53,112 bases of DNA from positions 1 through 53,112 of IMG/VR virus record IMGVR_UViG_3300025896_000034; one strand, written 5' to 3'. Source of the stretch: a virus. Under the pieces are notes generated by a model, which worked only from the letters and a program-made list of their open reading frames with translations, made no database searches and was not told the DNA's origin. This document shows, one piece after another, positions 17,823 through 47,263 of the stretch (the first letter of the stretch is position 1; each line of letters begins with the position of its first letter). A program made the position numbers and the translations under genes.

Positions 17823-18856
17823 GATTGAGGGATGGAGGCGTTGCTTAGGCGTTCGAGTGCCTCGTCAACTAGGTCGGGGCGTCCTTTGGAAGAAAGCCAG
17901 CCGCGCACGGCGTCGTCCCAGTTCATCGCGGCTGCTGTGGCGCGCTGCGTCGGCATGGACTCAGGACGCTCAAGCAGGGGATGAGCCTTGACACCAAGAG
18001 TACGAGCAATCGTAGAGACCCGATCAACTTCGTGGGCGGTCGAGCACCTCACCTTGTAATAGCCAGGCTCCAGCGCGATGGCTTGGTCGAACTGATCAAA
18101 AACCAGATAATGAAACTGGTGGCCGGTGGTACGGATCGAGGTAATCACGCCGTTACGGTCCACCTTGATGAAGCGCTTGACGTCTCCAGACTCGTCGGAC
18201 GTCACCTGATATGGAGAGCCCAGATAGGTCACTTTGTCGGTGAGCGACTGTGGCTTGTGGAAGTGGCCCAGGAACACGTGGTCGAACTTGTCTGGGTGGA
18301 GGTCCTCGATTCCGAGCGCCCCCTCGAACAAAGACGAGGCCAGCATGGCTCCGGAGACACCCTGGTGGAGGCACAGGAAACGCTTTCCGACGTGCTTAGG
18401 TCCGAGAGCGGCTACTACGTGCTGCAAGCGCTCCTTGAGCGCGTCCGTGTCGTCCGTGTAGGCAAAGAAGATGTACTGGTTGCCGTCGATCTCCAGGATG
18501 GCATGGTCGGACACCACGGTAACACTGCCGAGCAGCTCAAAAGGCTTGAGGGCGTGGATGGTGCCGGACCTGCTGTAGTGGTCATGATTGCCAGCCACCA
18601 AAATGAGCTTGACCCCCTTGTCGCGGACCCTGCCGATCCACTCAGAGACAGCGAACATCACTGAGGTGTCCACGGCACGTTGGGTCTCAAACAAGTCGCC
18701 CAGAACCACGATGGTGTCGCCCTTCTTGGCCGGAGCCAGCACCTGATCGAGGGCGTGAATTCCGTCCTGCAGCCGGTTGGAAAACCCGGTCGGCAGGAGC
18801 GTCCCGAAAGAACTGTGGTTGTGCAGCTGCAGATCTGCTGTTAGGAACACGCTCAT
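17819..18856 (-). CDS. SbcD/Mre11-like metallophosphoesterase, T4 gp47-like
   Basis: 345 residues. The calcineurin-type motifs are visible in order: TADLQLH near residue 6 (usually DxH), VLGDLFE, VAGNHDHY, a later HQG, and GHFHKP. Enzymes of this family (T4 gp47, SbcD, Mre11) are the nuclease half of a complex with an SMC-like ATPase (gp46, SbcC, Rad50), used in recombination and DNA-end processing. An oddity is that the first motif reads DLQ where DLH is usual, although a His follows two residues later. No gp46/SbcC partner is in the window. It lies in a minus-strand run with overlapping neighbours on both sides. Confidence 0.75.
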   Translation of the reverse strand: MSVFLTADLQLHNHSSFGTLLPTGFSNRLQDGIHALDQVLAPAKKGDTIVVLGDLFETQRAVDTSVMFAVSEWIGRVRDKGVKLILVAGNHDHYSRSGTIHALKPFELLGSVTVVSDHAILEIDGNQYIFFAYTDDTDALKERLQHVVAALGPKHVGKRFLCLHQGVSGAMLASSLFEGALGIEDLHPDKFDHVFLGHFHKPQSLTDKVTYLGSPYQVTSDESGDVKRFIKVDRNGVITSIRTTGHQFHYLVFDQFDQAIALEPGYYKVRCSTAHEVDRVSTIARTLGVKAHPLLERPESMPTQRATAAAMNWDDAVRGWLSSKGRPDLVDEALERLSNASIPQS

Positions 18857-19679: not shown

Positions 19680-20769
19680 GGGCTGAAGTAGTTGTGTCGA
19701 TGGTGACGCTCTCGATGGCCTGATCGAAGTCGGCCATTGGGAAGGCCTTGAGGGCCGAGTCTGGGTTGCAGTTGAAGACCTCGAATCCGACCTTCAAGAA
19801 ATACTCCTGCAACTGGGTGAAGCGGTTGATCAGAAGCCCGTAGGAACTGTTGTTGCCCTTGATGGCACCCGTGGTGCGCTCTTCGTCAAAGAAGTACTTG
19901 GCGGTCTCAGACATGTTGAAGTCGCAGCCAAGAAGGTAGAGCTTCTTGAAGCCGAGCAGATGGATGATCCGGACAGCTGACAGCATGCAGGAACGACCGC
20001 CACCAAGGTCGGAGTGATTGCCCCAGTTGATGGTCTGCTCACTCAGGTACTGGGCAGCGAGGAAGCGCTCGTTGCGGCGGAAGCCGATCACGTTCGGGTG
20101 CTGCCACACCTGTGGCCCTTCTTGGTTGGTCTGAGGATTCCAGGTCGGCTTGGAGAAATGCGAGTATGGAATGAACTTCATGATGTTCGGGTTACGCCAG
20201 ATCTCCGGCATAAACCGGGTCGGGTCGTCCACACAAGTCCACATGTTGGGAGTAAGGCTGTGACCACCGTTGTTGACGCCGAATAACACGACGCCGGTCT
20301 GCTTGAGCTTGAGCTTGTCGATTTTGTTGAGGCTTGGCCCGTTGAGTGCCAGGAAGCAGGTCTGACCACGGTACAACCCGAGGAGGTCGATCGGAGCCCC
20401 GTCGTGCCGGAAGAACATCGGAGTGCCACGCATGGCGTCCGGCTCAGGCAGCTTGCCAATACCACGTTGACCACCACACCAGTTGTGCTCGTTGCGGTCG
20501 GCCTTGTCCACAAAGTCATCATGAGCACGGCGCATGGCCTTAACGGGGTCGCGCATCAACACCTCAACTCGCACGCAGTCGGCACGTTGCTCTGGCGTTA
20601 CCAGTTCCTCTTTGAAGAGCTTGAAGTCGATGTGACTGCCGTTCTTCATGAACAACCTGACATCGGGCTGCTTGATGACCGCAACGTTGGCGACGACGGC
20701 GTCTAGTTCGCCGGACCCCCAGTTGACGTCGCTAAACTTCAGTGATAGAGTCTCGTAGGTCTTCTTCAT
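19630..20769 (-). CDS. MptE/DUF115-like protein
   Basis: 379 residues from the ATG at 20769 (MKKTYETL). The central part has the signature of the MptE-like/DUF115 group: CFLALNGPSLNKID, GVVLFGVNN, a WTCVDDPTRFMP segment, then GRSCMLSAVRIIHLLGFKKLYLLGCDFNM. Known members include 6-hydroxymethylpterin pyrophosphokinases and sugar-transferase-like enzymes; the phage substrate cannot be deduced. An N-terminal extension of about 140 residues is unassigned. It might modify a nucleotide, a pterin or a virion glycan. Confidence 0.5.
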   Translation of the reverse strand: MKKTYETLSLKFSDVNWGSGELDAVVANVAVIKQPDVRLFMKNGSHIDFKLFKEELVTPEQRADCVRVEVLMRDPVKAMRRAHDDFVDKADRNEHNWCGGQRGIGKLPEPDAMRGTPMFFRHDGAPIDLLGLYRGQTCFLALNGPSLNKIDKLKLKQTGVVLFGVNNGGHSLTPNMWTCVDDPTRFMPEIWRNPNIMKFIPYSHFSKPTWNPQTNQEGPQVWQHPNVIGFRRNERFLAAQYLSEQTINWGNHSDLGGGRSCMLSAVRIIHLLGFKKLYLLGCDFNMSETAKYFFDEERTTGAIKGNNSSYGLLINRFTQLQEYFLKVGFEVFNCNPDSALKAFPMADFDQAIESVTIDTTTSARGMYTEKPKRGAPQAY

Positions 20770-20794
20770 AGATTGGATGAGCTGAGTTAGAAAT

Positions 20795-20802
20795 CTACGT
20801 AT
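20795..20802 (+). promoter_or_regulatory. CTANNTAT octamer (candidate phage promoter)
   Basis: CTACGTAT, 9 nt before the ATG at 20812, the longest spacing of the set. Confidence 0.35.
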
Positions 20803-20819
20803 TTGACCAGTATGGTCAA
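20803..20819 (+). promoter_or_regulatory. palindrome over a start codon
   Basis: TTGACCA (20803-20809), GTA, TGGTCAA (20813-20819), a perfect 7-bp inverted repeat spanning the ATG at 20812 in a divergent gap. Candidate operator or leader hairpin. Confidence 0.4.
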
Positions 20820-21291
20820 GATCACCCCCACCCTCCTCGAATCCAGGCTCCTGATTGAAGCGATCACCGGAGAAAAGCTGTTCGACAGTCTTGCCTTTTC
20901 TTACGAGACCAGCCGTGGCGGCGGTGCCTTTGCACAGGAACTTAACGGCTTGAGTCCAAACGACACCCGAATGATCCTCGATTTCATGAAAGAGGCTGGG
21001 TATGACGTGAGGCTCCCAGAAACGGGTGCTACTCCGCACGCGATCAAACGCGCTATCACAACCGCTGTGGCGTCCTCTTCTTCGTCCTCGTCCAGCTCAG
21101 CGAGCCGGTCCGAAGGTTTCGGCACTCACGAAGAGGACGAGGACGAGGAGGATGAGACCGGCGTCATCAAGGATGACGAGTCCGGCATCAGTGTCAGGCG
21201 CGAGCGCCCGATGAAAGACGACCCCGCTGCGAGCGAGCTGGCCCTTGCCAGAACTCTTGGACATCGCAGCGAGACCGGCGAAGAGGACTAA
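20812..21291 (+). CDS. hypothetical protein with Ser and acidic runs
   Basis: 159 residues from the ATG at 20812. The N-terminal 85 form a plausible globular domain (TPTLLESRLLIEAITGEKLFDSLAF...LSPNDTRMILDFMKEAGYDVRLPE). Then comes a run of about eleven Ser, followed by an acidic stretch (HEEDEDEEDETG) and a polar tail. No family recognised. The start codon lies inside a perfect palindrome. The 3' end overlaps the convergent MazG-like gene. Confidence 0.5.
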   Translation: MVKITPTLLESRLLIEAITGEKLFDSLAFSYETSRGGGAFAQELNGLSPNDTRMILDFMKEAGYDVRLPETGATPHAIKRAITTAVASSSSSSSSSASRSEGFGTHEEDEDEEDETGVIKDDESGISVRRERPMKDDPAASELALARTLGHRSETGEED

Positions 21292-26995: not shown

Positions 26996-27299
26996 ACAGA
27001 ATCAGGTTGAGGAGTGGCAGGGGGCGTGGCTTTCCGTCGTTGCCGGTTAGCGTGACAATATCGGGAGTGACCTCGGTGATCGTAAGCAGCTCGTTGAACA
27101 AAAACACGCGATCTCCCACCTTGTCGGGGAGGTGTAGGTGCCTGATCTTCAGGAGCATGCACATGGTCTTGAAGGCTAGCACATAGTTGCCGCGCTGAAG
27201 ATCTGCAGAGGCGGTGCGCTTGGCGAGCTTCCAGGCTTGGTGGACGTCCCTGCATGGCTTCCCAGCTAGGAACGCCACAGCGTCTAGGTTTTTGATCAT
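26949..27299 (-). CDS. hypothetical protein
   Basis: 116 residues, no family recognised. It starts with an ATGA overlap with the sigma-like gene upstream, and its 3' end overlaps the nuclease-like gene. The final 30 residues are basic and low-complexity. It probably belongs to the same transcript as the sigma-like factor. Confidence 0.5.
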   Translation of the reverse strand: MIKNLDAVAFLAGKPCRDVHQAWKLAKRTASADLQRGNYVLAFKTMCMLLKIRHLHLPDKVGDRVFLFNELLTITEVTPDIVTLTGNDGKPRPLPLLNLILCERRQPSFPSNQAKA

Positions 27300-28339
27300 G
27301 AGTCGGAAACCAGACGGGCCACACGATCTCTGCCTCCTCCAAGTTTGATGGGGCGGTCTTCCAAGAGGCCGTCCTCAATGAAGCTGAGCACGTTCTCGAC
27401 GTCCGATTCAACGATCGCTGGGCTGATCCCTGGAAGCTTCATCCCCACCTCGACCAGAGACTGCGAGTCCTTGACCAGAGCGTTGATGACGCCACCGGCG
27501 GCGGCAGCACGCTTCATCTGCTGGACCGTGGGGAACCTGACCGACATTCCGGCGAACACGTGCATGAGGTGTCGAGTGTTTTTGACCCCGATGATGTTGA
27601 TGAGGTCTGGGATGAAAGAGAACTTGGCACCCAGACGCATAACGTCCCCCTCACTGAGCGGCGAAGCAAAATGGTCGAGCAGCACGTTACGGACTGCTCC
27701 GGTGGTCCAGTCAACCAGAAACTTGGCCTCGTCGAGCCCGATCTCGTATCCGAGACGCAGAGTGTTGAGCAGGTTACGTCGGTAGTCAACCGAGCGCCCT
27801 TCTGAGTCCTTACCACGGGTCTCACCCCTGCGTTCGAGCACCGACACCAGAATCACCCTGATGGCTTCTTGGATGTTGGGTTCAGTCCAGCGAGTCTCGA
27901 TGGCTGAGAGGCATTTCGCGATCGCCTGGCTGTCATCGAGGCGATGGTGCTCAGAAGCGACTGAGCCAAGTAGGTCGATTGGAGTATCACCAAGATTTTG
28001 GAACCTACCACGATAGTTCGACTCGCGAGCCACTAAGCTGATGCAACCATGCTTGGTCGAGGTAGCCGCGTAGGTGTAGAACTTGCCATCACCGGGACGC
28101 CATTTGAGAGCCCAACGGTCGATCTGACTGTACAGATGGGACAGCAGGTCCTCAAACGGGACCGACTGACTGTAACGGCTTTTCCTGATGATGCTCGACA
28201 TCAGGTTGGTGAGGTGATCGCAGATCCGGTGAAAGGTCGCAAAGTCGCGGTTGCGCTTAAACAGAAGGCACAGCTCCTCAACGGTCTCGTTCTCGAAGAT
28301 CATTTTCTTGCTGGCTGTTGTCGGAACTCTCGGTATCAT
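27296..28339 (-). CDS. sigma-factor-like protein, T4 gp55-like
   Basis: 347 residues. Residues about 40-110 (HRICDHLTNLMSSIIRKSRYSQSVPFEDLLSHLYSQIDRWALKWRPGDGKFYTYAATSTKHGCI) match sigma region 2: the helix binding core polymerase, DLL.H.Y, an F/W-x-P-x-x-G-x-F-x-TYA motif and the following helix. The rest of the protein lacks a recognisable region 4, although the region at 245-330 contains helical repeats. T4 gp55 is a short late sigma factor without region 4 that directs RNA polymerase to an octamer promoter. By analogy this could read the CTANNTAT octamers found here. The T4-late role is inference. Confidence 0.6.
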   Translation of the reverse strand: MIPRVPTTASKKMIFENETVEELCLLFKRNRDFATFHRICDHLTNLMSSIIRKSRYSQSVPFEDLLSHLYSQIDRWALKWRPGDGKFYTYAATSTKHGCISLVARESNYRGRFQNLGDTPIDLLGSVASEHHRLDDSQAIAKCLSAIETRWTEPNIQEAIRVILVSVLERRGETRGKDSEGRSVDYRRNLLNTLRLGYEIGLDEAKFLVDWTTGAVRNVLLDHFASPLSEGDVMRLGAKFSFIPDLINIIGVKNTRHLMHVFAGMSVRFPTVQQMKRAAAAGGVINALVKDSQSLVEVGMKLPGISPAIVESDVENVLSFIEDGLLEDRPIKLGGGRDRVARLVSDS

Positions 28340-28469: not shown

Positions 28470-28724
28470 ATGGAAAAGCTCATAGACGTTGCATTATTGA
28501 TCCTGGCTGACCTCAACGTCGCCGGGGAAGCTGGACGCATAAAGACGCGGATACTGACACTAGTCAGTGGCACCGGGGCGAACCTGGACGAAGTCCTCGA
28601 TTCGTTGGTCAAACGCGAGTATATGACGATCGTGAAGGTGGCCGGTGCCAGAGCAATCGGCAACAAGCACTTCATCACGGAACTTGGTCAGAGAGCATTC
28701 GTGGAGGCTACCACCAAGCTGTGA
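28470..28724 (+). CDS. winged-helix-like small protein
   Basis: 84 residues from the ATG at 28470, placed 10 nt after a -10 box. The order helix, TRILTLVSGTGANLDEVLDSLVKREYMTIVKV, then an F-I-T-E-L-G-Q strand-turn, resembles a winged-helix domain. Overlaps the next gene by GTGA. A small regulator is plausible, but the family is not certain. Confidence 0.45.
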   Translation: MEKLIDVALLILADLNVAGEAGRIKTRILTLVSGTGANLDEVLDSLVKREYMTIVKVAGARAIGNKHFITELGQRAFVEATTKL

Positions 28725-28930
28725 ACCACGAGTGCCAGTACTGCGGGACGCTCGGAGATCACTCCTTGGCGAACTGTCGTAACTGCGGGGCTCCTACCGC
28801 TGAAGCGGTCGTGGCAGCACCACCTCCCCAACGCTTCGCGGTAGCGAAAGGACTGCTCCAGGTGGTTCCCGGAGCAGTCCTCATATTGATCAATGGCTGG
28901 AAGCTGATCTCAGTTCTGGTCGGACTCTAA
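28721..28930 (+). CDS. zinc-ribbon membrane micro-protein
   Basis: 69 residues from a GTG overlapping the upstream stop. The N-terminus has two pairs of cysteines, CQYC and CRNC, spaced 13 residues apart, as in a zinc ribbon. Residues about 40-69 (FAVAKGLLQVVPGAVLILINGWKLISVLVGL) form one transmembrane helix. This zinc-ribbon plus single-TM layout is typical of small membrane-associated proteins that interact with cytosolic partners. Function unknown; co-transcribed with the winged-helix-like gene from one promoter. Confidence 0.6.
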   Translation: MNHECQYCGTLGDHSLANCRNCGAPTAEAVVAAPPPQRFAVAKGLLQVVPGAVLILINGWKLISVLVGL

Positions 28931-31695: not shown

Positions 31696-32309
31696 AGATC
31701 TTCTTGGTCCCGTCCAAACTTGCGTCCAGCAAGTTTCAGAACAAGATCGAGCTGCTTTACGACGTCCTGCGAACACATCAGGCAGGAGTGAAGCATGCGG
31801 TGACAACCGCCAGCACGGACTCCGACTTCAATGAAGAACACGCGAGCGAGGCAAACCTCGTCGTGTTCGCCATTACTAAGAGCACCGTGTGGCGTCATCG
31901 GGGGGACCCTGCCAACAGGGTTCGACCGCAGAATAAGCTGATCATCGGGCGTGGTGTTTACGACATCAACAGGATTGTGTGTGATAACATGAGCGACGAC
32001 GAACTGGTTACGGAGGCCGTCGTGGTCTTCGTGGACGAGGAGTCTGATTCTCGTGCTCACTTCAACGCCTATCGGATGCCACACACCAGAGACTTCAGAC
32101 AGATGGGAAGCACCCGTCCGTCTGGCTTCACAAAGGACACGGACTGGAACCAGTTCGCTTGGTGCGACTGGGAACCCAACGAGATCGGCTTCCCAGCGCT
32201 CCTGCAATGGCAGTCGCCTGAGTATCGGAAGCGCAAAGGCACGGTACCGCCCAAGAAGACCAGGCTTGCAGTCGCCTGTCGCTACTTGAGGAAGGCCGGT
32301 CGGCGCTAA
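31692..32309 (+). CDS. hypothetical protein
   Basis: 205 residues. An alpha/beta-like N-terminus with strands such as ANLVVFAITK and EAVVVFVDEE is followed by a basic C-terminus (YRKRKGTVPPKKTRLAVACRYLRKAGRR). No family recognised. It ends at the strong bidirectional terminator at 32329-32358. Confidence 0.5.
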   Translation: MKIFLVPSKLASSKFQNKIELLYDVLRTHQAGVKHAVTTASTDSDFNEEHASEANLVVFAITKSTVWRHRGDPANRVRPQNKLIIGRGVYDINRIVCDNMSDDELVTEAVVVFVDEESDSRAHFNAYRMPHTRDFRQMGSTRPSGFTKDTDWNQFAWCDWEPNEIGFPALLQWQSPEYRKRKGTVPPKKTRLAVACRYLRKAGRR

Positions 32310-32328
32310 ACAACCAACCAGAAAATGC

Positions 32329-32358
32329 AGCAGGCCTGGGAGTGATCCCAGGCCTGCT
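32329..32358. terminator. bidirectional terminator
   Basis: AGCAGGCCTGGGA (32329-32341), loop GTGA, TCCCAGGCCTGCT (32346-32358), a perfect 13-bp stem. T-rich tails follow on both strands (CTCTTTTG on +, GCATTTTC on -). It sits between convergent genes ending at 32309 and 32408. Confidence 0.85.
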
Positions 32359-32407
32359 CTCTTTTGTGGCGAGACGCCCCCACGGCTCTCATCTCACAAA
32401 GCTTGTG

Positions 32408-33475
32408 TCAGACGATCATGTTGCTCAAGTCCCCAAGAGCCACCGATGAGCCGGTCCGGTAGGACTCAACTTCCGTCTCTTGGGGGGCCACCTGAACCAA
32501 ATGGCCGTCGAACCACTTGTCGATCCAGCCAATAGGGTTGGTCTTCTGTCCGAAAATAGCTGGCAGGCCGATGCTCTGGAGGCGGAGGTCGGTGATGAAC
32601 TTGTTGAAGCCGATCATGCGTGCTTCATCCAGGTTTGCAATTGGGCCTTCTGAGAAGAGGTACTTGGACCATTCGATTTCCTCCTGAGCCGCCACCTCAA
32701 ACATCTCGATGGCGAGCGGCTTGCACTCCTCCCAGACATCCATGAACCCCTCGCGTGGGTCGGTCCTCATAGCGTTGAGGATTGTCGAGGTGATCTCGAC
32801 GTGCACGTTTTCGTCGCGGCAGATCTCACGGACGATTTTGGCGTTGCCTTCCATCTTGGCACGCGGTGGCTCAGCCAGGGCGAACGCGCAGGCAAAGGAG
32901 CCGTAGAAGCGGACGCCTTCGAGGATCTGAGTGCTCAGCAGGGTCAAAAGGATCTGCTTGCGCGGGTCGTCACCCTCAAAGGCGATCAGGCGGTCGAACT
33001 CGGCTTTGACGGCGGCACCGCGCTTGATGATCTCCGGGTTTGTCAGGGCGTCGTCGAAGATCTTTCCAGCGTCCGGCGTGGCGTTCTGCAGCAGATAGGT
33101 GTAAGAGTAGCTGTGGAGGTTCTCGCAGAAGATCCAGTAGTTGAACGCTGCCTCCATTTCGGTCAGCGACACGTAGGGCATCAGGGAACTCACACCACGC
33201 GTGATCACGGTGTCCATGGCGGTCTGATACTGCAGGTTCAGAGTGAACACGCGGCGTTCCTGTGGGTTCAGGCGCTCAAAATCGGGACGGTCCTTGGTGA
33301 GATCCATGCGCTCCGGACGCCAGAAGAAGTTCATCTGTTTCTTGAACAGCTCAAGAAACTCCGGGCGTTGGGGCCGATCATAACGGTGGAGACCCAGCGG
33401 GGCTCCCAAGAACATAGGTTGTCCGCTACAGTCGGTGGCTGTGTCATCGAATACGGTGCGTTTGGGAAGGATCAT
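32408..33475 (-). CDS. nrdB: ribonucleotide reductase small subunit, class Ia
   Basis: 355 residues. The ferritin-like core has the metal ligands in order: D in WRPERMDLTKD, E and E..H in TEMEAAFNYWIFCENLHSYSY, and later E and E..H in VREICRDENVHVEI; SYSYTYLL lies where the radical tyrosine is expected. NrdB forms the tyrosyl radical used by NrdA to reduce ribonucleotides. It is directly downstream of NrdA on the minus strand with a gap of 36 bp. A -10-like TATAAC lies 9 nt upstream of the ATG. Confidence 0.9.
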   Translation of the reverse strand: MILPKRTVFDDTATDCSGQPMFLGAPLGLHRYDRPQRPEFLELFKKQMNFFWRPERMDLTKDRPDFERLNPQERRVFTLNLQYQTAMDTVITRGVSSLMPYVSLTEMEAAFNYWIFCENLHSYSYTYLLQNATPDAGKIFDDALTNPEIIKRGAAVKAEFDRLIAFEGDDPRKQILLTLLSTQILEGVRFYGSFACAFALAEPPRAKMEGNAKIVREICRDENVHVEITSTILNAMRTDPREGFMDVWEECKPLAIEMFEVAAQEEIEWSKYLFSEGPIANLDEARMIGFNKFITDLRLQSIGLPAIFGQKTNPIGWIDKWFDGHLVQVAPQETEVESYRTGSSVALGDLSNMIV

Positions 33476-33511: not shown

Positions 33512-36500
33512 TTAAAGGGTGCAGGCACCGCCTGCGCAGCCAGATTCTTCCAGGAATGGGGCCTGGGTGTCAACGTGCTCGGAGACCGTCTGGCGGTCGT
33601 CATCGTCAGACACGATGTAGTAGAGAGACTTGCCGCCGATCCGGAAGAAAAACAGCTGTTCACGCAGAATCAGCTCCAGTGGGATCTTGCCGTCCGGGTA
33701 ACGCTTGTATTGGTAGTACAGGTTCGTGGAGATCGACATGCACATGAACTTCTGAATCGCGGCGGCGATGCTGAGGTATCCAAAGTTGTCCTTCATCCCG
33801 AAGGCGTGCTGATAGACTCCGAGCGTCCCTTCTCTGGTCAGAACCTGAGGAACCAACACGCGGACCGGGCCAGACTTGGACTTTTTGAAGGTCACTTCGG
33901 AACGCACCGGGTCGATCCCGTTGGTGCTGTTCTGGACGACCGAAGACGACTCGCACGGCATCTGAGCCGACAGCGTGCAGTTGCGCAGGCCGTGCTTCTT
34001 GATGCGCTCACGCAGGCCTTCCCAATCCATCTTCAGAGGAACCGTCACGATTGTGTCCAGGTCCTTCTTGTAATGGTCGATCGGCAGCAGGCCCTGAGCG
34101 TATTTAGTATCCCTGAAGCCGGGGGCTGCGCCCAGCTCTTCGGCCAGCTTGCAGGAGGCATCGAGCAGGTGCCACTGCACCATTTCCATGAGTTCGGCGA
34201 CGCGGTTCGGGGCGTCCGGGTGGTCGTAAGTGAGGCCTTCGCGAGCCAGCCAGGCGGCGAGGTTGGTGAGGCCGACTCCGAGGGAGCGCCAGTACTTGCA
34301 GAACTGCTCGGCGGCAGGCACTGGGTAGCTCTGGTAGTCGATCAGGGTATCGAGGTGAGACACCGTGGTGTAGGCGATCCTGGAGATGTTGTCGGCGGTG
34401 ATTTCGGTGGCGTTGAGAGCACTCAGGATGCACAAGCCAATCCAACCGGGGCCGTCGATGTGCTGAATTGGGATCGTCGGGTGGGTGACCTCCATGCACT
34501 GTCCAGTTACAATGCCGTTCACAATGATCTGATGATTCTCGGGCTCGGTCAGACAGAAGGTTTCCTCCTCACCAGCGTAGGTGATGCTCTCGACTTCCCT
34601 GAAGTAGAGGTTGTGGGAGTTGTTGCTGCCAGGGTGCGTCGCCAGCCACTCGCGGAGCGAAGCCATCTTGGACTCCTGGCGAACCCCGATAAGGTCCGCA
34701 AACAGCACCAGATTATCTCGTGAGGAGATCATCAGACGCCAGGTGGCCTTGCCGTCATACTCGCGCATCCCGCCCTTGCCGTCTTTCATCAGGCGCTTGC
34801 AGCCTTGAACTCCAGGGTGGAGCGATGACATGATACCAAACTGGCTCAGCAAGACTTGCACCTCACGAAGGAGAGACTTGCTGACCTGAGCAATCGTGAC
34901 GCTGGCAGAGGCACCATAACAGCCGATTGTAGCATCAGCGGTGTAGAGACCACGCAGGAAAGCCCCAACCGTGGTTTTCGTCCCACGCCAGATGCTAGCT
35001 GGAACGCGATGCTTGCTGCCGGGGGTGACACCATCCGCTAGCAACCTGCGCCCAAAGGGGAGGCTACGCGCACTTGCCACCCAGTACCCGAAGGCCTCGT
35101 CGAAATGTTTGTTGCTAAACGAGTAATCGGGGACGAGTTCGGATGTTGGGGAACTGTCAGTGAACAGCTGCTTCAGGAGGCTGGAGAACACCGGCCCCAA
35201 CTCATCGATTTCATCATCCCACAGCTTGATGATGCCGTGCTGACTGGTAGCGTTGCGGGTTGAAACAGAACCGTCTCCGATGAGGTGCCCAGCAAGCTCA
35301 GCGTAGGTGATGTCATCAAAGTCTCCGAAAAATTCAGTATTGGATACCCTGATGCGGCTGCCAGCTGCTAACTCGAACAACCTAGCTCTGCCGCCATCAT
35401 AAAGCTCGAATTCATGATGAGCTGTTGCCCTCACGGTGAGACCACCAGACAGTTTCAGGTCGAACACCTCAGATGACTCAGAGGTCCTCACCACTGGTGT
35501 GGAGTTGGCCACCCCGTGCTGGTTGACCACGAAGGAACTGTTGAAGTCAGCACCAGAACCAAGTTCGTGGCAGCCTTGCTCCAGCCAGAGGTCGCGCATC
35601 GGGCGGTACCCGGAAGTGGTGAGCAGTTTGGTGTCACCACTGAGACAGAGGTTGGACATGCGGACCGGCAGCGAAAAGGAGGAGTGCGTGTTGCAGTTCT
35701 CGATGTGCAGGTAGTAGAGGCGGCCAGTCTCAAGGGTGACATCGAGCGAGAGGTTCACCAGCTCCTTGGCTGAGATCTTCTTGGTGGTCAGTCCGGGGCG
35801 ACTCTCGCATTCAACGTAGAGGCGGTCGAAGTCCGGAGTCCCCCAAGCCTCATACAGGTCCTTCACCTCGTTAGGGTTGAACAACGTGATGTCCTGTCCT
35901 GCGATGGCGCGGAGGTAAAGCATCCGGTTGACCACGATGCAATAGTCCAGCTTGAACACCTTGCGGTCGTGGGAGCCACGGGTCGAGGACTTAGCGATCA
36001 CCAGCGACTCCACCTCAAGGTGCCAGAACTGGAAGAAGACCGTGGCCGACGCCGAGCGCACCCCGTGCTGGCTGGTGGACTTGATGGTTGACTCGAACAT
36101 CTTCAGGAACGGAATCACGCCGGTCGAGACGACCTCCCCAGACGCCACCGTGGAGTTCTGAGGGCGAATCCTGGAGATATTCAGGCCAAGACCAGCACGG
36201 GCTGCCCCATACTTCATCATGGCAAGGTTGGTGTGGCCGATGGAATCAAGCGTATCGTCCATTTCAGCCAGAGTGCAGCTGGCAAACTGCCGCAGCGGGG
36301 TCCTGAGACCAGCACGCACTGGAGTGGGCTGGGAGATCACTAGAGTGGACACGCCGTGATAGAGATCGCGGACCAGCTGCATCCTGACCTCACGCGGCTT
36401 GACGGCGTAGAGGGCGAGGGCTGTGATCATGATAGCGAACTGCGGGGTCTCGTAATGGCACTCCGAAGCCCGGTCTTGCACCAGATACTTCTCCATCCAC

Positions 36501-36793
36501 CACACGATAGCAGCATAGGTGTAGCCGAGGTCGCGGGTGTGGTCGATGGCCTGCTCGGCCTCGTCCAGCTCAGCTTCCGAGTAGAGGGCGAGAGCCTGAT
36601 CGTAGCGATGGGCGCTCAGACCCTGGTGCAGGAAGTTCTTCAGAGAAGGTGCAATGGTTCCGTCCCCTCCCCACACCTCTCGGCGCAGGGCAAGGTTCAG
36701 CAACAGGGACGCCTGATACTGGGTGTCTGGGTTTTCCGGCGAGATGGTATCTCCGGCAGATTTTGCGGCAAGCTTAAGTTCGTCGATGGTCAT
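33512..36793 (-). CDS. nrdA: ribonucleotide reductase large subunit interrupted by an intein
   Basis: 1093 residues as translated from the ATG at 36793; the host protein after splicing has 710. The spliced catalytic motif reads RMSNL-CMEVTHPT, the N-x-C-x-E triad of class I enzymes, so the Cys immediately after the intein is the catalytic thiyl Cys. Other family segments are present: SSFSLPVRMSN, a central N-rich block, a PCESSSVVQNSTNGIDPVRSEV segment and the C-terminal redox cysteine tail GCAGGACTL. It reduces ribonucleotides in the cytoplasm together with NrdB, for DNA synthesis. The intein must be removed before any activity. It is preceded by a small gene whose stop overlaps its leader. 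Confidence 0.92.
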   Translation of the reverse strand: MTIDELKLAAKSAGDTISPENPDTQYQASLLLNLALRREVWGGDGTIAPSLKNFLHQGLSAHRYDQALALYSEAELDEAEQAIDHTRDLGYTYAAIVWWMEKYLVQDRASECHYETPQFAIMITALALYAVKPREVRMQLVRDLYHGVSTLVISQPTPVRAGLRTPLRQFASCTLAEMDDTLDSIGHTNLAMMKYGAARAGLGLNISRIRPQNSTVASGEVVSTGVIPFLKMFESTIKSTSQHGVRSASATVFFQFWHLEVESLVIAKSSTRGSHDRKVFKLDYCIVVNRMLYLRAIAGQDITLFNPNEVKDLYEAWGTPDFDRLYVECESRPGLTTKKISAKELVNLSLDVTLETGRLYYLHIENCNTHSSFSLPVRMSNLCLSGDTKLLTTSGYRPMRDLWLEQGCHELGSGADFNSSFVVNQHGVANSTPVVRTSESSEVFDLKLSGGLTVRATAHHEFELYDGGRARLFELAAGSRIRVSNTEFFGDFDDITYAELAGHLIGDGSVSTRNATSQHGIIKLWDDEIDELGPVFSSLLKQLFTDSSPTSELVPDYSFSNKHFDEAFGYWVASARSLPFGRRLLADGVTPGSKHRVPASIWRGTKTTVGAFLRGLYTADATIGCYGASASVTIAQVSKSLLREVQVLLSQFGIMSSLHPGVQGCKRLMKDGKGGMREYDGKATWRLMISSRDNLVLFADLIGVRQESKMASLREWLATHPGSNNSHNLYFREVESITYAGEEETFCLTEPENHQIIVNGIVTGQCMEVTHPTIPIQHIDGPGWIGLCILSALNATEITADNISRIAYTTVSHLDTLIDYQSYPVPAAEQFCKYWRSLGVGLTNLAAWLAREGLTYDHPDAPNRVAELMEMVQWHLLDASCKLAEELGAAPGFRDTKYAQGLLPIDHYKKDLDTIVTVPLKMDWEGLRERIKKHGLRNCTLSAQMPCESSSVVQNSTNGIDPVRSEVTFKKSKSGPVRVLVPQVLTREGTLGVYQHAFGMKDNFGYLSIAAAIQKFMCMSISTNLYYQYKRYPDGKIPLELILREQLFFFRIGGKSLYYIVSDDDDRQTVSEHVDTQAPFLEESGCAGGACTL
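34499..35647 (-). mobile_element. LAGLIDADG intein in nrdA with C-terminal Gln
   Basis: 383 codons in frame. It begins CLSGDTKLLTTSGYRPMRDL (Cys1, block A), has a block B-like TAHHEFEL, two LAGLIDADG-type helices (AELAGHLIGDGSV and VGAFLRGLYTADATIG), and ends EPENHQIIVNGIVTGQ before Cys+1. The last residue is Gln instead of the usual Asn, and the penultimate is Gly instead of His. Gln-terminated inteins are known and can splice through Gln cyclisation. The insertion is exactly before the catalytic Cys of NrdA. Confidence 0.92.
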
Positions 36794-36800
36794 GTGGGGA

Positions 36801-37061
36801 CTAGGCAGAAAGCCAGGAAAGGGCAAACTGAGTTAAAGTTACGTTAGCCCCTTCAATAACGACAAGACCGCACTCTTTCAGCCACTCCACAGCGGGGGTG
36901 ACTTGAGTGCTGCCATTATCTCGAATTGACTGGAGGAGCCGCCAGTCATCACCCGTGATCTCGACCAGATTGACGTTGTCAGTGGCGGTCGTGATCATCC
37001 CAGTCTCGATCAGACGAGGCTCTTTAGTGCGTTGAGCAAGTTCTTCGCGAAGAGACAGCAT
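36801..37061 (-). CDS. small winged-helix-like protein
   Basis: 86 residues. The C-terminal part (DDWRLLQSIRDNGSTQVTPAVEWLKECGLVVIEGANVTLTQFAL) has a winged-helix pattern. It ends 8 bp before the NrdA start and begins 2 bp after the gp53-like stop. Role unknown; it could be a regulator of the downstream NrdA/NrdB genes. Confidence 0.45.
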   Translation of the reverse strand: MLSLREELAQRTKEPRLIETGMITTATDNVNLVEITGDDWRLLQSIRDNGSTQVTPAVEWLKECGLVVIEGANVTLTQFALSWLSA

Positions 37062-40952: not shown

Positions 40953-41558
40953 TTATTTGGCACGACGAGCTGTCACAGCCTCACGGTGGAGACGCATGAA
41001 GCTGCCACGACCGTAGCCAGCGGTGCGACATTCGGCCAGAGGGTTGCGGGCCTTAGGTTTCACGCTGGAAAGCTGCGGCTGCGGCGGCTCCTGAGGCTTC
41101 TCGATGGAACTTTTCCGGATGTCATCGGCCCGTGATTCAAGGTCGGCGTTCGGCAGATCAGCCACGGACTTGATTCCAAGGAACTCAGCCAGCGGCTGGT
41201 CCCCGATCTCGTCCAGAAACATTGCGAAGGCCAGCTGGTTGGGCTCCCATTTGGCAACACCAAGCTGGCTGGACTCGGTACCCTTGAACAGGGACATCAG
41301 GTCAGAGGTGAGACCCTGAGCATCCTTAGAATTGAGGTTGCCATCTTCACGGTACAGGTCGTACAACCTGATGAAGATCTTGAGGGCCGTCTTGTTGGTC
41401 TTCAGGAAGTCCTTGAAACCAGACAGTTCGTCTGGCTCGGAGCTGGTAATGCTCGCCAGATCATCTTCTGGTTCAGGCGCTGCGGGTGTGTCCAGTTCAG
41501 AGCTGCCTGGAGCGTCAGCAGGCTCCAAGTCGTCGGTCAAGGTCTCGATTAGTCTCAT
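40953..41558 (-). CDS. hypothetical protein
   Basis: 201 residues. The acidic, disordered N-terminus (1-45) is followed by a helical domain (FKDFLKTNKTALKIFIRLYDLYREDGNLNSKDAQGLTSDLMSLFKG) and a basic end. No family recognised. The CTAGGTAT octamer lies 7 nt before the ATG and the gene sits between the portal and another unknown, suggesting a head or neck role. Confidence 0.5.
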   Translation of the reverse strand: MRLIETLTDDLEPADAPGSSELDTPAAPEPEDDLASITSSEPDELSGFKDFLKTNKTALKIFIRLYDLYREDGNLNSKDAQGLTSDLMSLFKGTESSQLGVAKWEPNQLAFAMFLDEIGDQPLAEFLGIKSVADLPNADLESRADDIRKSSIEKPQEPPQPQLSSVKPKARNPLAECRTAGYGRGSFMRLHREAVTARRAK

Positions 41559-41573: not shown

Positions 41574-42569
41574 TCAGTCATCCGCTGTCCTGTCGAGGCT
41601 CTGGCTGGACGCCACAAAACCGGCCATGAGATCATTCAAGTCAGGACCGTGGCGAGTAGCCGGAGGACGCTTCGGAGCATCTTCCTCCTCTGACTCTTCT
41701 GACTTCCACCAGTAAGCAGGTAGCACCTCAAGGTCTTGCTTGACTGCGTAGTCGCCTACCAGCTTGCGCAGACGCCGGTCCCGGTCGGCCAGCGATACCG
41801 AGGAGGCCACGATGATGGCTCCGTTGACCTTCTCTGCGAACTCAACGTTGTTACTGACCAGCTGGAAGTGCATATCCTCCTTGATGACCGTCCCGATCTT
41901 GTGTTGCTGCAGCCAGCCGTAGGTGGCCTCTTCGATCGCAGTAGCAGCGGCCTCAAACAACAGCTCACGCAGTGGTTTGGAGGAGGCAAGACGAGCCTTT
42001 TCGTAAGAAAGGACCTCCATGATCGGTTTGGGGCGCAGCATGGCCGACAGACATGGCGCGGTGCCTTCCGTCCAGGTCTCGTGAATGCTGGAGTAACCCT
42101 TGAAACGGCCTAGGTTAACCGAAGCGATCATCCACCACACTGAGGGCTTCATGGCCGCCGGGTCGGGAGGTCCGTAGCTCAGAGCACCCTCCAGCCACTG
42201 CACCTCACCGGACAAGATGTCCGACCGCATCATCCCAGCGAAGGTCTCGTGCGACGACCCGGCGTTGATGATGAACCTGAGCTTGTCGCGCCATGTAGTC
42301 AGGTACTCCAGGCTCGACTCGGCGACCAAGTAGGAGTTGGCGAAGAATGGCGCTCGTGGTGGCTTGTTGAGTCCGCTCCCGGTGCGCAGCAGGTAGGCTG
42401 CCACTTGGTCTTCCAGGAACTCCTTGGCCGGTCCGAAGAAGGGCTCCAGTTTCTCGATCTCGATGAGGACCTCATCAGACGGCATCCACCCTCCATCGGT
42501 TGGAGGAACCCCAACTACACGGGTATATTGCTTAGTGAGTATTTCGCGTGCCTGGATGGCGATCATCAT
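41574..42569 (-). CDS. hypothetical protein, portal-adjacent
   Basis: 331 residues from the ATG at 42569 (MMIAIQAREILTKQY); a TTG at 42587 is possible. Mixed alpha/beta, with an acidic C-terminal 50 residues (KSEESEEEDAPKRPP). No family recognised. GGTTTCT lies 9 nt upstream. The position before the portal suggests a head or neck protein, but this is context only. Confidence 0.5.
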   Translation of the reverse strand: MMIAIQAREILTKQYTRVVGVPPTDGGWMPSDEVLIEIEKLEPFFGPAKEFLEDQVAAYLLRTGSGLNKPPRAPFFANSYLVAESSLEYLTTWRDKLRFIINAGSSHETFAGMMRSDILSGEVQWLEGALSYGPPDPAAMKPSVWWMIASVNLGRFKGYSSIHETWTEGTAPCLSAMLRPKPIMEVLSYEKARLASSKPLRELLFEAAATAIEEATYGWLQQHKIGTVIKEDMHFQLVSNNVEFAEKVNGAIIVASSVSLADRDRRLRKLVGDYAVKQDLEVLPAYWWKSEESEEEDAPKRPPATRHGPDLNDLMAGFVASSQSLDRTADD

Positions 42570-42593
42570 GTCAGAACTAGAAACCAAGTCTGA

Positions 42594-42815
42594 CTAGTGA
42601 TCACCGGGCGGAGCCACCATGGTGAGCTTGCCAACCACGGTGACCTTGATAATCTCCCTGAGCGACGGGTGCCGATCGCGGGCTGCCCTCCTGGCATTGG
42701 CCTCAGCAGCCGCTAGGTTTGGAGCAGAGCCCTCCCAGCGCCATAGCGTCTTGAACAGACCCCCTCTGGTGAGGTTGTCGAACCCTAGTTCAAGATCTGC
42801 CAAGTACTCGGCCAT
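42594..42815 (-). CDS. small hypothetical protein
   Basis: 73 residues, with AAAEANARRAARDRHPSLREIIKVTVV indicating a helical then strand segment. No family recognised. It is the first gene of the long minus-strand unit and is preceded 5 nt upstream by the CTAAGTAT octamer. Confidence 0.5.
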   Translation of the reverse strand: MAEYLADLELGFDNLTRGGLFKTLWRWEGSAPNLAAAEANARRAARDRHPSLREIIKVTVVGKLTMVAPPGDH

Positions 42816-42820
42816 ATCTC

Positions 42821-42828
42821 ATACTTAG
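42821..42828 (-). promoter_or_regulatory. CTANNTAT octamer (candidate phage promoter)
   Basis: CTAAGTAT on the minus strand, 5 nt before the ATG at 42815, at the head of the portal/NrdA/NrdB unit. Confidence 0.45.
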
Positions 42829-42829
42829 T

Positions 42830-43231
42830 GTGGCCGTCGAACGTGGAGCCGATACTGGTTCTACGTGTGCGCGCACGCGCTCGCTGGCCGCGCTGGCTCG
42901 CGTGCGCGATTCCCTCTTAAACGTGATTTCTGTTATAGCTTTAGCTTTGAAACGGAGTGAACAAGAAGATGATGGTAGAACAGAAGATCACCTCTCTCCC
43001 CCTCCACGGCCCACGGAGTGGGGCGGAAACCCAACTTGTTGGGTTGTTAAGAAGGGACATAACCTTAAAAAGTAAACGCGAGCGCGAGCGGCCCGCTGGC
43101 TGGCTCCGGCATGTGACTCGCCTAGCGGCGAGGACGGCCCCCACTCCGTGGGGCCGGGTGGCGGTTGGATGGAGACGATGCAATGTGGCAGCAGGCTGCA
43201 CTGTTTGGTTTTCTTGGCTGGTCCCCACACC
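42830..43231. other. non-coding hairpin-rich region upstream of DNA polymerase
   Basis: About 400 bp without a convincing gene. It contains a 10-bp GC-rich inverted repeat (42870-42879 / 42899-42908, CGCGCACGCG and its complement), an AT-richer segment (42917-42955), a mini-hairpin CCCACGGAGTGGG (43010-43022), AACCCAAC-TT-GTTGGGTT (43028-43045), CTCGCC-TAGC-GGCGAG (43117-43132), and CCCCAC-TCC-GTGGGG (43139-43153). The first mini-hairpin and the last are also 14-bp inverted copies of each other (43010-43023 and 43139-43152). Two GC-rich Ala/Gly/Cys-like segments have no translatable meaning. It could hold a structured RNA, a replication origin or the polymerase regulatory region. No promoter with a good -35 was seen. 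Confidence 0.55.
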
Positions 43232-46200
43232 ATGAGCAAAGTCCTAAAGCAGCCCGTTATGTCCGGGCCTGAGCATCCACCATCCGAGGAGCATCCGGCC
43301 TGCATTAAGTGCGCCTTGTTCAAGACTGCCGAGACCCCGTTCTGGGACTCCTTCTACGAGCAGGACGGCAAGATCAAGATGGGGATGCCCGATTACCCGG
43401 TGAACGGTGGCTGGGTGATGGTAGTCGGCGACGGGATCTCCAAGGAAATGGACGAGGAGGAGAAGCCGACCGACCTTAGCGTGCTGATCAAGCACCTACG
43501 GAGCATGGGTCTCAACAACCGCGTTGTCTATGTGCCAGGCACGCTCTGTGTGGCCCCGGACGGTACCGAGGGACGCAAACGCAACCTCAAGAAGCCAGAG
43601 ATCAGCCGCTGCTTCGGTCACCATATCCGGTGGCGGGTGGACTACCTGAAGAACATCGGCCTGTGTGGGCTGATTGCCGCCGGTCCCGTGGCGTCCTATA
43701 GTCTGCTGGGCCACATGGACTCCAAGCAGTGGGGGCAGCGCAAGCCCTACGTCCACGACCACGACATCCCGGTGATCGGGACGATTGACGTGGAGGCGAC
43801 TCTGGTTGCTCCGACCAAGCGCCCCCTGCTGATTACGCAGCTCCAGTTTGCTGTGGACTCCTTGGAAGGGCGCATCGCAGCTACTGACCGTCACCAGGTC
43901 GCCTACACAGTGGCGTGGTCTCCTGAAGAGTTCGATGCTTGGTTTGAAGGTCTGGACCTGCGCAAGCCGCTAATGTGGGACGTGGAATCCAGTGGGGTCA
44001 AGCCCTTCGCAGCTGGTTACCGTCTGGGCGTGTTTTCCTTCTACCACCCGTCCCGCGACAAGGTTCTGATCGTGGCGACTCCGGACTACAAGCATGCTCA
44101 CGACAAGTATTCAGACTGGGTGGATGCTGCCCTGGAACGCTTGGAACAGGGCTCCGAAGAGGATGTGCCGTGCAACAGTTTCGACCAGCAGTGGCGCAAG
44201 ATGGAGCCAAAGGTCAAGAAGGTGATCGAGGCTGAGGAGTACAAGAAGCTGGGTCACAATCAGCAGTTCGATGATGTGTCGGTGTATGCCAGGTACCGCT
44301 GGCAGATGGGCGGCTACTTCAACGACACGATGATCATGAACTACCTGTTGACGCCGGACGAAAAGCGCAACGGTTTGGAGGCTCTGGTCCAGAAGTGGTA
44401 TCCGGAGGCCGACGGTTACTGGGACGCTCTGGACGAATATAAGAGCCAGTACAACCCAGAGTCTTACATGGAGATTCCGTGGGACGTCTTGGTGCCTTAC
44501 GCGGCCTACGACACCTGGGTGCTGTGGCCGGTGTTCATGGCGATCCTCAACGAGTTCAAGAGGCTGGATGACGAAGAGTATGGCGGCCTGTTCGTGAGGC
44601 GCACCGAGGGTGGAGTGATCCAGCCCACCTACTCGCTCCTTGAGTATGCGATGTTTGGCCGGAAGATTCACCAACGGATGTGCACCGAGCTGGAGAAGAC
44701 CGGAGCACCGATCGACACCGAGCTGCTGCCACGCATTTACGACGAGTACAACAGGCAGCGTGATGCTTTGGCCGTCAAGCTCAACTCCCATCAGGACGTC
44801 GTAGCCTTCTGCTCCGAGGTCCTAGGACCACAGGCCAAGAAGGGAACCCCGAACTTCAAGCTGTGGAAGGCAGGCGAGATCCCAGAGCTCAACTGGGGCT
44901 CGCCGGTCCAGCTCAAGACCTTCTTCCTTGACTACCTCGGAATGAGCACTGACCGCCGGACCAAGACCGGCGGTGTCAGCCTGGATGAAACGGCCCTGCT
45001 GGGTATGATGACGGAGCACGAGATCGTCAAGATCCTGCTGGACTGGCGCGGAGCCGACAAGTTCGTGACCTCCTTCCTCGATCCGCTCATCGAAAAGCGC
45101 GTGCTGTGGCCGGACGGACTCACCCACGCCTCCTTCAGGCCGTCCGGCACCGAGACCAGCCGTCTCGCAGTGTCCAGCCCGAACGTCCAGGCCATCCCGC
45201 GTGACGGCTTGGTCAAGAAGCTCTACTGCCCACGCGACCGTGCCAAGGGCTGGCTGGTGACACGCGATTATTCAGGCCTCGAAGTCCGCGTGATGGCTTG
45301 TATGGCGTCCGATGAATCGCTGATTCACACCTTCATGACGGGTGGTGACCCCCACTTCAACACGCAGCGCCACTTCTTCCACGACAAAGCTGACAAGAAG
45401 AATAAGACCCAGCGCTCGATTTGCAAGCAGGCCCTGTTCGGGCGAATTTACGGCCAGACCGCCAAGGGTCTGTATGAACTACTGCTCGGAAACGGTGTGA
45501 TGAACCCCGACACCGGCCTCCCGATCACTATGGAGGAAGCCGAGGCCTTCAACCAGATGCTGGACGACGCCTATCCGGCCATCGCCAGCTGGGTCAACGC
45601 CTCTCACCGCTTCTCGATCGCTACCAAATACGTGGCGTCGCCCTTCGGATTCGTCCGCCCTCTGGACGCCCTGCAGGACCACGCCACCTTCCTGACCCGG
45701 AAGCGTGAAAAGGGTTGCTGGGACAATCAGCGCTTCCGCAAGCTCTCCAGCGCTATCTCGAAGGACCTCAGGCGTGCTCAGAACTGTGTGGATGCTGAGA
45801 CCGAGTGTCTTACTGCCGAAGGCTGGAAAACCTATGATAAGCTGGCAGCCGGTGAGCTAATCATGACGAAAAACCCGGATACCGGAATCCTGGAGTGGCA
45901 CCCGATCCTGAAGATGAACGTCTTCGAGGAATCGTCCACGCCGGTATGGGAAGTCGAGACCAACGCCTTCTCGGCCTGCGTTACCCCGAACCACCGCTGG
46001 CTGGTGACGACCCGCAAGCGTGGCGGCAAGGGTAAGCCAACCCAGTATGTCGATGAAATCTTGACGATGGAGCAGATGGTAGCCTCGAAGGGCTTCTCGT
46101 CTCTGCACCGGACTGGCGAGTGGGAAGGTGCAGACGCCCCTTATTCAGACCGGTTCCTGCAGCTCATCGGGTGGTATGTGACCGACTCCAGCATCAAGCG

Positions 46201-47263
46201 TGGAGTGGATGGGAGGTCTTCTACAATTGAAGTCGGTCAGGACTCTTCCAAAAAAGACAACTGCGAGCAGATTCGAAGCATCCTTGGCGACTGGGCTATC
46301 AGCGAACGCCCGGAAGGGACTTTCTTGCGCTGGCGTGTGAATGTTGCTATCTCAGAGGAGGTCATCAGGCTGCTACCGCGCCGGAAGCTCACCAACGAGT
46401 TCATCAGGTCACTCTCGCAGTTTCAAGCAAGACTCGTGATGAGTGAAATGCTCAAAGGAGATGGCAGCCGTGGGCGTGTCCTCTATGCTGAGGACCAGGA
46501 GGAGGTTGACTTATTTCAGACTCTGGCTTTCATAGCTGGCATCGCCACCAACGCTGGTTGGCGTGACATGTCGAAGTACCCGCCACGTGCCAGCAAAAAG
46601 CTTAAGCGTCCGATCATTTCGAAGAAGGGTGGCTACTGGGAAGTTTCGGTTCTCAGCCGTAAGACAGCGCAGGTCCTGAAGCCACAGGTCAAGATTATCG
46701 ACGACAAGCGCTTGGTGTGGTGCCCGACCGTGCAGAACAGCACCTGGGTGGCCCGTCGCAAGGGCTGCGTTTACGTGACAGGGAACACCGCGATCCAGTC
46801 GGCTGCCGGAGACCTCACGGTGTTCGCTGGTTGGCAGATCCGCAACGTCATGAAGGACGTTGGGCTGGACTCCGAGATCGTCAACATCGTTCACGATGAT
46901 ATTTGGATCAACGTCAACAGCGATGATCAGGTGCCGATGACCACCGCTGTGATGCGTCAGGTCATGGACAACTCACCGGACTGGCTCCCCGACATGCTCC
47001 CAGGCTATGACCCGTCTTGGATCACGGTGCCGATCATCGGCGAGTGCGACGTCGGGATCAACGCCAAGGACGCCTTTGGCGCTAAAGAACCTGATTGGGG
47101 CGTGGCCGACTCCCGTCTGAAGCTCAAGGTGCCAGGCGTCGTCATCAACAAGATCAACGGGCGCGACCTTGCGACGGAATGCGAGCCAGACTACGTCGAT
47201 TTCTTGGATAACTCAGATCTTCTCAGGTCAGTACTCAACGTACAACGTAGCCAGTTCAATTAA
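43232..47263 (+). CDS. polA: family A DNA polymerase with UDG-like N-terminus, interrupted by an intein
   Basis: 1343 residues as translated from the ATG at 43232 (MSKVLKQ); about 1009 after intein removal. Residues 1-190 resemble a [4Fe-4S] uracil-DNA glycosylase: C24 and C27 in CIKC, then C106 and C127 spaced as in family 4 enzymes, but the usual GEAPG catalytic motif is VVGDGIS, so activity is doubtful. A 3'-5' exonuclease follows (DVESSG near 249, LGHNQQFDDVSVYAR, YAAYDT), then the polymerase with motif A RDYSGLEVRVMA (about 678), motif B RSICKQALFGRIYGQ (about 730) and motif C IVHDDIWINV. The intein sits before the IQSAAGD motif. UDG-PolA fusions are known in SPO1-like phages. It leads the replication gene run. 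Confidence 0.9.
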   Translation: MSKVLKQPVMSGPEHPPSEEHPACIKCALFKTAETPFWDSFYEQDGKIKMGMPDYPVNGGWVMVVGDGISKEMDEEEKPTDLSVLIKHLRSMGLNNRVVYVPGTLCVAPDGTEGRKRNLKKPEISRCFGHHIRWRVDYLKNIGLCGLIAAGPVASYSLLGHMDSKQWGQRKPYVHDHDIPVIGTIDVEATLVAPTKRPLLITQLQFAVDSLEGRIAATDRHQVAYTVAWSPEEFDAWFEGLDLRKPLMWDVESSGVKPFAAGYRLGVFSFYHPSRDKVLIVATPDYKHAHDKYSDWVDAALERLEQGSEEDVPCNSFDQQWRKMEPKVKKVIEAEEYKKLGHNQQFDDVSVYARYRWQMGGYFNDTMIMNYLLTPDEKRNGLEALVQKWYPEADGYWDALDEYKSQYNPESYMEIPWDVLVPYAAYDTWVLWPVFMAILNEFKRLDDEEYGGLFVRRTEGGVIQPTYSLLEYAMFGRKIHQRMCTELEKTGAPIDTELLPRIYDEYNRQRDALAVKLNSHQDVVAFCSEVLGPQAKKGTPNFKLWKAGEIPELNWGSPVQLKTFFLDYLGMSTDRRTKTGGVSLDETALLGMMTEHEIVKILLDWRGADKFVTSFLDPLIEKRVLWPDGLTHASFRPSGTETSRLAVSSPNVQAIPRDGLVKKLYCPRDRAKGWLVTRDYSGLEVRVMACMASDESLIHTFMTGGDPHFNTQRHFFHDKADKKNKTQRSICKQALFGRIYGQTAKGLYELLLGNGVMNPDTGLPITMEEAEAFNQMLDDAYPAIASWVNASHRFSIATKYVASPFGFVRPLDALQDHATFLTRKREKGCWDNQRFRKLSSAISKDLRRAQNCVDAETECLTAEGWKTYDKLAAGELIMTKNPDTGILEWHPILKMNVFEESSTPVWEVETNAFSACVTPNHRWLVTTRKRGGKGKPTQYVDEILTMEQMVASKGFSSLHRTGEWEGADAPYSDRFLQLIGWYVTDSSIKRGVDGRSSTIEVGQDSSKKDNCEQIRSILGDWAISERPEGTFLRWRVNVAISEEVIRLLPRRKLTNEFIRSLSQFQARLVMSEMLKGDGSRGRVLYAEDQEEVDLFQTLAFIAGIATNAGWRDMSKYPPRASKKLKRPIISKKGGYWEVSVLSRKTAQVLKPQVKIIDDKRLVWCPTVQNSTWVARRKGCVYVTGNTAIQSAAGDLTVFAGWQIRNVMKDVGLDSEIVNIVHDDIWINVNSDDQVPMTTAVMRQVMDNSPDWLPDMLPGYDPSWITVPIIGECDVGINAKDAFGAKEPDWGVADSRLKLKVPGVVINKINGRDLATECEPDYVDFLDNSDLLRSVLNVQRSQFN
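45785..46786 (+). mobile_element. LAGLIDADG-type intein in DNA polymerase
   Basis: 334 codons in frame. It begins CVDAETECLTAEGWKTYDKL, has a block B His in TPNHRWLVTTR, LAGLIDADG-like helices LIGWYVTDSSI and MSEMLKGDGS (the first lacks the canonical acidic residue, so homing activity may be lost), and ends CVYVTGN before Thr+1. It interrupts the conserved N/T-x-IQ-x-AAD helix just before motif C. Confidence 0.88.

Follow-up and report, generated by a model that had tools for sequence, protein, structure and literature searches.

The 416-bp non-coding gap in front of the DNA polymerase gene of this virus is very probably a cis-acting DNA element that is conserved by shape and not by sequence. 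Our analysis establishes the features of the gap, shows that they exceed chance expectation, and finds them again in the orthologous gaps of two remote relatives. The element probably initiates replication of the viral DNA or acts as a switch for both gene sets. The window, by which we mean the whole stretch of DNA analysed, is a 53,112-base IMG/VR fragment that encodes a T4-like portal, tail sheath and baseplate wedge, a ribonucleotide reductase, an intein-bearing family A DNA polymerase and an NAD-dependent ligase. G001 and G002 are remote IMG/VR relatives of the unclassified myovirus to which the window belongs.

Intein-like inserts are present in the large subunit of the ribonucleotide reductase and in the DNA polymerase, based on the sequence and on PHROGs overlap, and intein domains (Pfam, NCBIfam) are found in an unnamed 936-aa protein; the three intein-bearing genes are located at 33512–36826, 43232–47263 and 11017–13827. 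A minus-strand gene at 3771–4898 encodes a TnpB-like RNA-guided nuclease (guided_TnpB; its 90.5 bits fall slightly short of the curated cut-off of 100). The product of 27296–28339 (minus strand), a gene conserved in G001, has a weak match to sigma-70 region 2 (20.1 bits versus a cut-off of 24) and may be a phage sigma factor. An SbcD/Mre11-like nuclease subunit is encoded at 17819–18856 (minus strand); nucleases of this type cut hairpin DNA. Shine–Dalgarno-like motifs were observed upstream of only 4 of the 26 genes checked, suggesting that the host may not use Shine–Dalgarno pairing.

The gap is located between divergent genes. A codon-usage gene call places it at 42816–43231, making it the largest non-coding gap of the window, as had been proposed in a sequence-only reading of the same DNA with limits of 42830–43231. 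On the left it is flanked by a small minus-strand ORF (42594–42815; 73 aa, function not assigned), and on the right the polymerase gene begins at 43232 on the plus strand and extends to 47263, encoding exonuclease and polymerase domains together with the intein-like insert. The small ORF is followed by two conserved minus-strand genes, 41574–42587 (337 aa, with homologues in G001 and G002) and 40953–41558 (201 aa), neither of which could be assigned to a family. The orthologous gaps occupy positions 46070–46576 of G001 and 20754–21117 of G002.

Near its left end, the gap contains a 19-nt tract of alternating purines and pyrimidines (TACGTGTGCGCGCACGCGC, 42862–42880), which is prone to form Z-DNA and is the longest such tract of the window. 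This tract was absent from the sequence-only description. A GC-rich hairpin at 42870–42908 (plus strand), identified from the repeat listing and by folding, has a perfect outer stem of 10 bp (CGCGCACGCG/CGCGTGCGCG). The AT-rich block that follows (42916–42995) is easily melted in a ranking of 80-nt stabilities and is a candidate unwinding element. Three further hairpins, found both in the repeat listing and in a hairpin scan, are CCCAC-GGA-GTGGG (43010–43022), which presents a C-GGA-G triloop on the plus strand, AACCCAA-CTTG-TTGGGTT (43028–43045, plus strand), with a 7-bp stem, and CCCCAC-TCC-GTGGGG (43139–43153), which presents a C-GGA-G triloop on the minus strand. The hairpin scan alone gave CTCGCC-TAGC-GGCGAG (43117–43132, plus strand). 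A GC-rich block at 43076–43155 is among the most stable 80-nt windows of the record.

Two of these hairpins are related to each other by inversion. The segments 43010–43023 and 43139–43152 are inverted copies of each other without a mismatch over 14 nt, and their loops (GGA and TCC) are complementary. They form part of longer inverted arms (42998–43023 and 43139–43164) that are 26 nt in length, 81% complementary and enclose 115 bp. The earlier claims of five hairpins within about 290 bp, of an inverted 14-bp pair with complementary 3-nt loops, and of an AT-richer block between GC-rich stems are thus borne out, the five hairpins all lying within 42870–43153 (284 bp).

These features exceed what is expected from the composition of the gap, as judged from 2000 dinucleotide shuffles of the gap itself. 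The gap contains four perfect hairpins, compared with a shuffle mean of 0.70 (p = 0.002), its distal inverted repeat of 14 nt is longer than the shuffle maximum of 13, and the 19-nt alternating run has p = 0.0005. As single-stranded DNA, the gap folds with z-scores of −3.96 (plus strand) and −2.97 (minus strand). In the 53 kb, only one site is less stable than the 80-nt window at 42916, and the 80-nt window at 43076 ranks among the most stable of the record. In a 200-nt fold scan the gap region ranks no higher than 14th of 530 windows, behind, for example, those at 28691 and 32291. The two strongest-folded stretches of the window are 28691–28890 and 32291–32490, the latter of which contains a hairpin with a 13-bp stem (32329–32358) between convergent genes. 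Terminators are expected in such positions, and this hairpin is a probable bidirectional terminator.

Relatives of the window are remote and were found through short polymerase motifs. No DNA-level relatives were detected among INPHARED phages or PLSDB plasmids, and neither single-protein scans nor the A1 polymerase and A3 ligase profiles returned close protein relatives. G002 was not among the matches listed for the A2 sheath profile, although its sheath is 55% identical to that of the window (portal, 50%). A degenerate pattern for the polymerase motif DYSGLEVRV identified G001 (L212/L216) and G003 (L211/L215), and a two-sequence profile (A4) then identified G002 (L217). A pattern for a second polymerase motif, PRDGLVKK, returned identical records and no others. 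GTDB genomes gave no matching relatives, and 38 further phage records reached via sheath and ligase matches included no clear member of the clade. G003 and G001 share the same gap DNA, and the comparison therefore comprises three independent lineages. Across these lineages the GC content spans 45–58%, and the polymerases of the relatives are 30–38% identical to that of the window.

The position of the gap is shared by all of these records. In G001, G002 and G003 a divergent gap likewise precedes the polymerase, with thyX (Pfam Thy1) lying between the two in G002, and the far side of the gap begins with homologues of 41574–42587 and 40953–41558. These two left-hand families have no Pfam match and adjoin the gap in all three lineages; the portal gene, unlike them, is located elsewhere in G001 and G002. 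Because they stay at the gap while the portal moves, the left-hand families may belong with replication rather than with the head. An AlphaFold model of the left neighbour was poor (pLDDT 43).

Direct alignment of the three gaps revealed no real sequence homology, and what recurs is their architecture. The longest alternating purine–pyrimidine run of each record falls within the gap: 19 nt starting at 42862 in the 53-kb window, 29 nt starting at 46163 in the 64-kb G001, and 17 nt starting at 20815 in the 65-kb G002, where a 15-nt run at 21005, also in the gap, ranks second. The gaps make up 0.78%, 0.79% and 0.56% of the window, G001 and G002, respectively. By position only, the chance that all three longest runs would fall in the gaps is ~3.5 × 10−7, a figure to be read with the fact that run length was chosen as the measure post hoc, after the first two gaps had been seen, and with n = 3 independent lineages. 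Hairpins are also concentrated here, with densities per kb of 9.6 in the gap versus 2.07 in the record for the window, 7.9 versus 1.31 for G001 and 11.0 versus 1.60 for G002, or 5–7 times the record mean. In other intergenic gaps of the same records, alternating runs reach at most 11 nt and hairpins are few. Every gap couples a block that is among the most stable of its record with one that is unusually unstable, the AT-rich block ranking in the top 0.13% for instability among 80-nt windows in G001 and in the top 1% in G002, and the single-stranded DNA fold z-scores range from −3.0 to −5.1 across the three gaps. One hairpin stem, CCCAC-NNN-GTGGG, is shared by two of the records, with two copies in the window and one in the 64-kb G001, all of them inside the gap; G002 has none. 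The sequence-only reading would have been set aside had relatives lacked conservation; in both remote relatives, the architecture is found again at the syntenic position.

Outside these records, 2.74 Mb of other phage DNA contained only one tract of comparable strength (L192 1781–1805, corresponding to G042 8763–8787). G042 is an unrelated AT-rich phage. Its tract lies in a divergent gap that is itself AT-rich, contains GC-rich inverted segments, has a DNA fold z-score of −6.31 and marks the record's switch in gene direction. The perfect-hairpin count of this gap is not above that of shuffles. The cumulative GC skew of G042 has a local minimum at the gap, but it tracks gene direction and is suggestive only. 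It is conceivable, if rather doubtful, that a class of control elements, origins or bidirectional switches, exists in which selection holds the shape of the DNA (a left-handed tract, extrudable tight-loop hairpins and a block that melts) even as the sequence diverges past alignment, and that this class extends through the whole unclassified myovirus clade and arose separately in at least one unrelated phage, G042.

The folding data bear on whether the element acts as DNA or as RNA. An RNA element, either a structured non-coding transcript or a folded 5′ leader on the polymerase mRNA, would be read from the plus strand and closed by a stem between 42998–43023 and 43139–43164 around three hairpins. 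The plus strand of the window gap does fold better as RNA than the minus strand (z = −3.92 versus −1.58), the enclosed segment 42990–43180 folds at −94 kcal/mol, and 42996–43058 resembles the whalefall-1 RNA (RF01762), with two adjacent hairpins in the same order, the second of which has a CUUG loop. This best Rfam resemblance scores 15.2 bits, however, far under the gathering score of 37, and was not seen in G001 or G002; no Rfam family rose above threshold in the window or in either relative. In the relatives, moreover, both strands fold about equally (plus/minus z = −3.42/−4.12 for G001, L212, and −3.41/−3.73 for G002, L217), which indicates perfect inverted DNA repeats rather than a one-strand RNA with G–U pairs. 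The 14-bp long-range pairing, which would be the backbone of any single RNA fold, is confined to the window, since the longest distal inverted repeats in the gaps of G001 and G002 are 8 and 7 nt, as in shuffles, and the gap holds only its 14th place in the fold scan of the window. The lack of strand preference in the relatives, the window-only pairing and the absence of an Rfam match together favour an element that acts at the DNA level; the structured RNA is improbable and not supported. The same 26-nt arms, 81% complementary around 115 bp, might instead mark a MITE- or REPIN-like mobile or repeat element or some other insertion, but the window contains no further copies, INPHARED phages and PLSDB plasmids contain no similar DNA, and the arms are missing in relatives in which the rest of the architecture persists, making an insertion of this kind highly improbable.

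Among DNA-level functions, a replication origin is the simplest reading of a gap at a gene-direction switch beside the replicative polymerase, and we tentatively propose, as a quite possible assignment, that the gap is the origin of this phage or one of several. In all three lineages the gap adjoins the family A DNA polymerase at the point where gene direction switches, and in the window it includes the easily melted AT-rich block at 42916. Iterons or other repeated initiator sites forming a family of at least three copies were not found in the window gap; the gaps of the relatives contain two copies of a 13-nt repeat (G001) and three copies of a 10-nt repeat (G002). Not every phage origin has iterons, and their absence therefore excludes an iteron-type origin but not origins in general. 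Iteron-type origins of phages and plasmids, of the phage lambda type, combine iterons with an AT-rich block and adjoin replication genes. The gap shares with them the AT-rich block next to replication genes but has a Z-prone tract and many hairpins in place of iterons. No initiator gene was recognized beside the gap, where the conserved left neighbour has no family match. The cumulative GC skew of the window turns near 44.5 kb. Although GC skew shifts at the gap, it tracks the orientation of the genes, and a comparison of fourfold sites within each coding strand gave no separate replication signal.

As an origin, the gap would respond to supercoiling and would possibly double as a divergent promoter. 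Negative supercoiling would drive the alternating CG-rich tract toward Z-DNA and cause the short GC-rich hairpins, whose loops are a tight 3–4 nt, to extrude, and the AT-rich block between them would melt. The exposed single strands and hairpins would then provide sites at which phage or host initiation proteins load helicase and primase, and replication would proceed bidirectionally from beside the polymerase gene. We infer the extrusion, Z-formation and melting, and their link to replication initiation, and structures of this kind could be advantageous in any divergent regulatory region. A precedent is the oriV of RSF1010 (IncQ), which contains the single-strand initiation sites ssiA and ssiB, one initiation hairpin per strand (PMC4434180). 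The window resembles it in that one hairpin occurs on both strands, in opposite orientations, next to an AT-rich block, and the gap hairpins would serve strand initiation as the ssi hairpins do (PMC4434180). The inverted hairpin pair, in contrast, is not conserved (one copy in G001, none in G002), and the sequences and stem sizes differ from those of RSF1010.

A serious rival to the origin is a divergent promoter region that behaves physically in the same way. The gap could possibly be a control region with no role in replication initiation, containing promoters for the left and polymerase operons whose timing is set by the supercoil-sensitive Z tract and hairpins, the latter perhaps acting as hairpin promoters or shielding the 5′ ends of mRNAs. 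Gene direction flips at the gap in all three phages, and G001 contains tandem copies of TAATTTTGAACAC. The gaps of the three phages gave no consistent match to sigma-70, Bacteroidota-type or T4-late-type promoter motifs, however; there is no sigma-70-type promoter in the window gap, no promoter motif is common to the three gaps, and the tract is missing from other intergenic gaps, where promoters are presumably present. The sequence CTARGTATNA, located upstream of some genes, was considered and rejected (8 occurrences versus 4.6 expected, not clearly above chance). The C-GGA-G hairpins also resemble those read on extruded DNA by the N4 virion RNA polymerase: in the early promoters of N4, a C-GGA-G loop extrudes at physiological supercoiling and is recognized on single-stranded DNA (PMC4496689). 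The likeness lies in the 3-nt GGA loop closed by C–G at 43010–43022 (plus strand) and 43140–43152 (minus strand) (PMC4496689). The two systems differ at position −8, which is A in both window hairpins versus a contacted G in N4; the loop is GTA in G001, G002 has no such hairpin, and the window phage is a myovirus, not a schitovirus. The longest open frame in the 53-, 64- and 65-kb fragments is 1924 codons and no giant RNA polymerase frame was seen there; a search with PF00940 gave no match, and its control likewise gave none. The sequence-only reading had placed a structured RNA or a replication origin ahead of a simple promoter. The origin is still plausible, now as a DNA element, while the structured RNA has lost ground and the divergent promoter stays in contention.

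To our knowledge, few origins of large environmental phages have been mapped, and elements that lack sequence conservation escape homology searches. Physical properties of the DNA at a syntenic place provided a reproducible signal across phages whose polymerases are 30–38% identical. Conservation at the level of shape without conservation of sequence is unusual and testable. If confirmed, it would allow origins or master switches to be pinpointed in phage genomes recovered from metagenomes, and it would serve as a test case for selection acting on non-B DNA.
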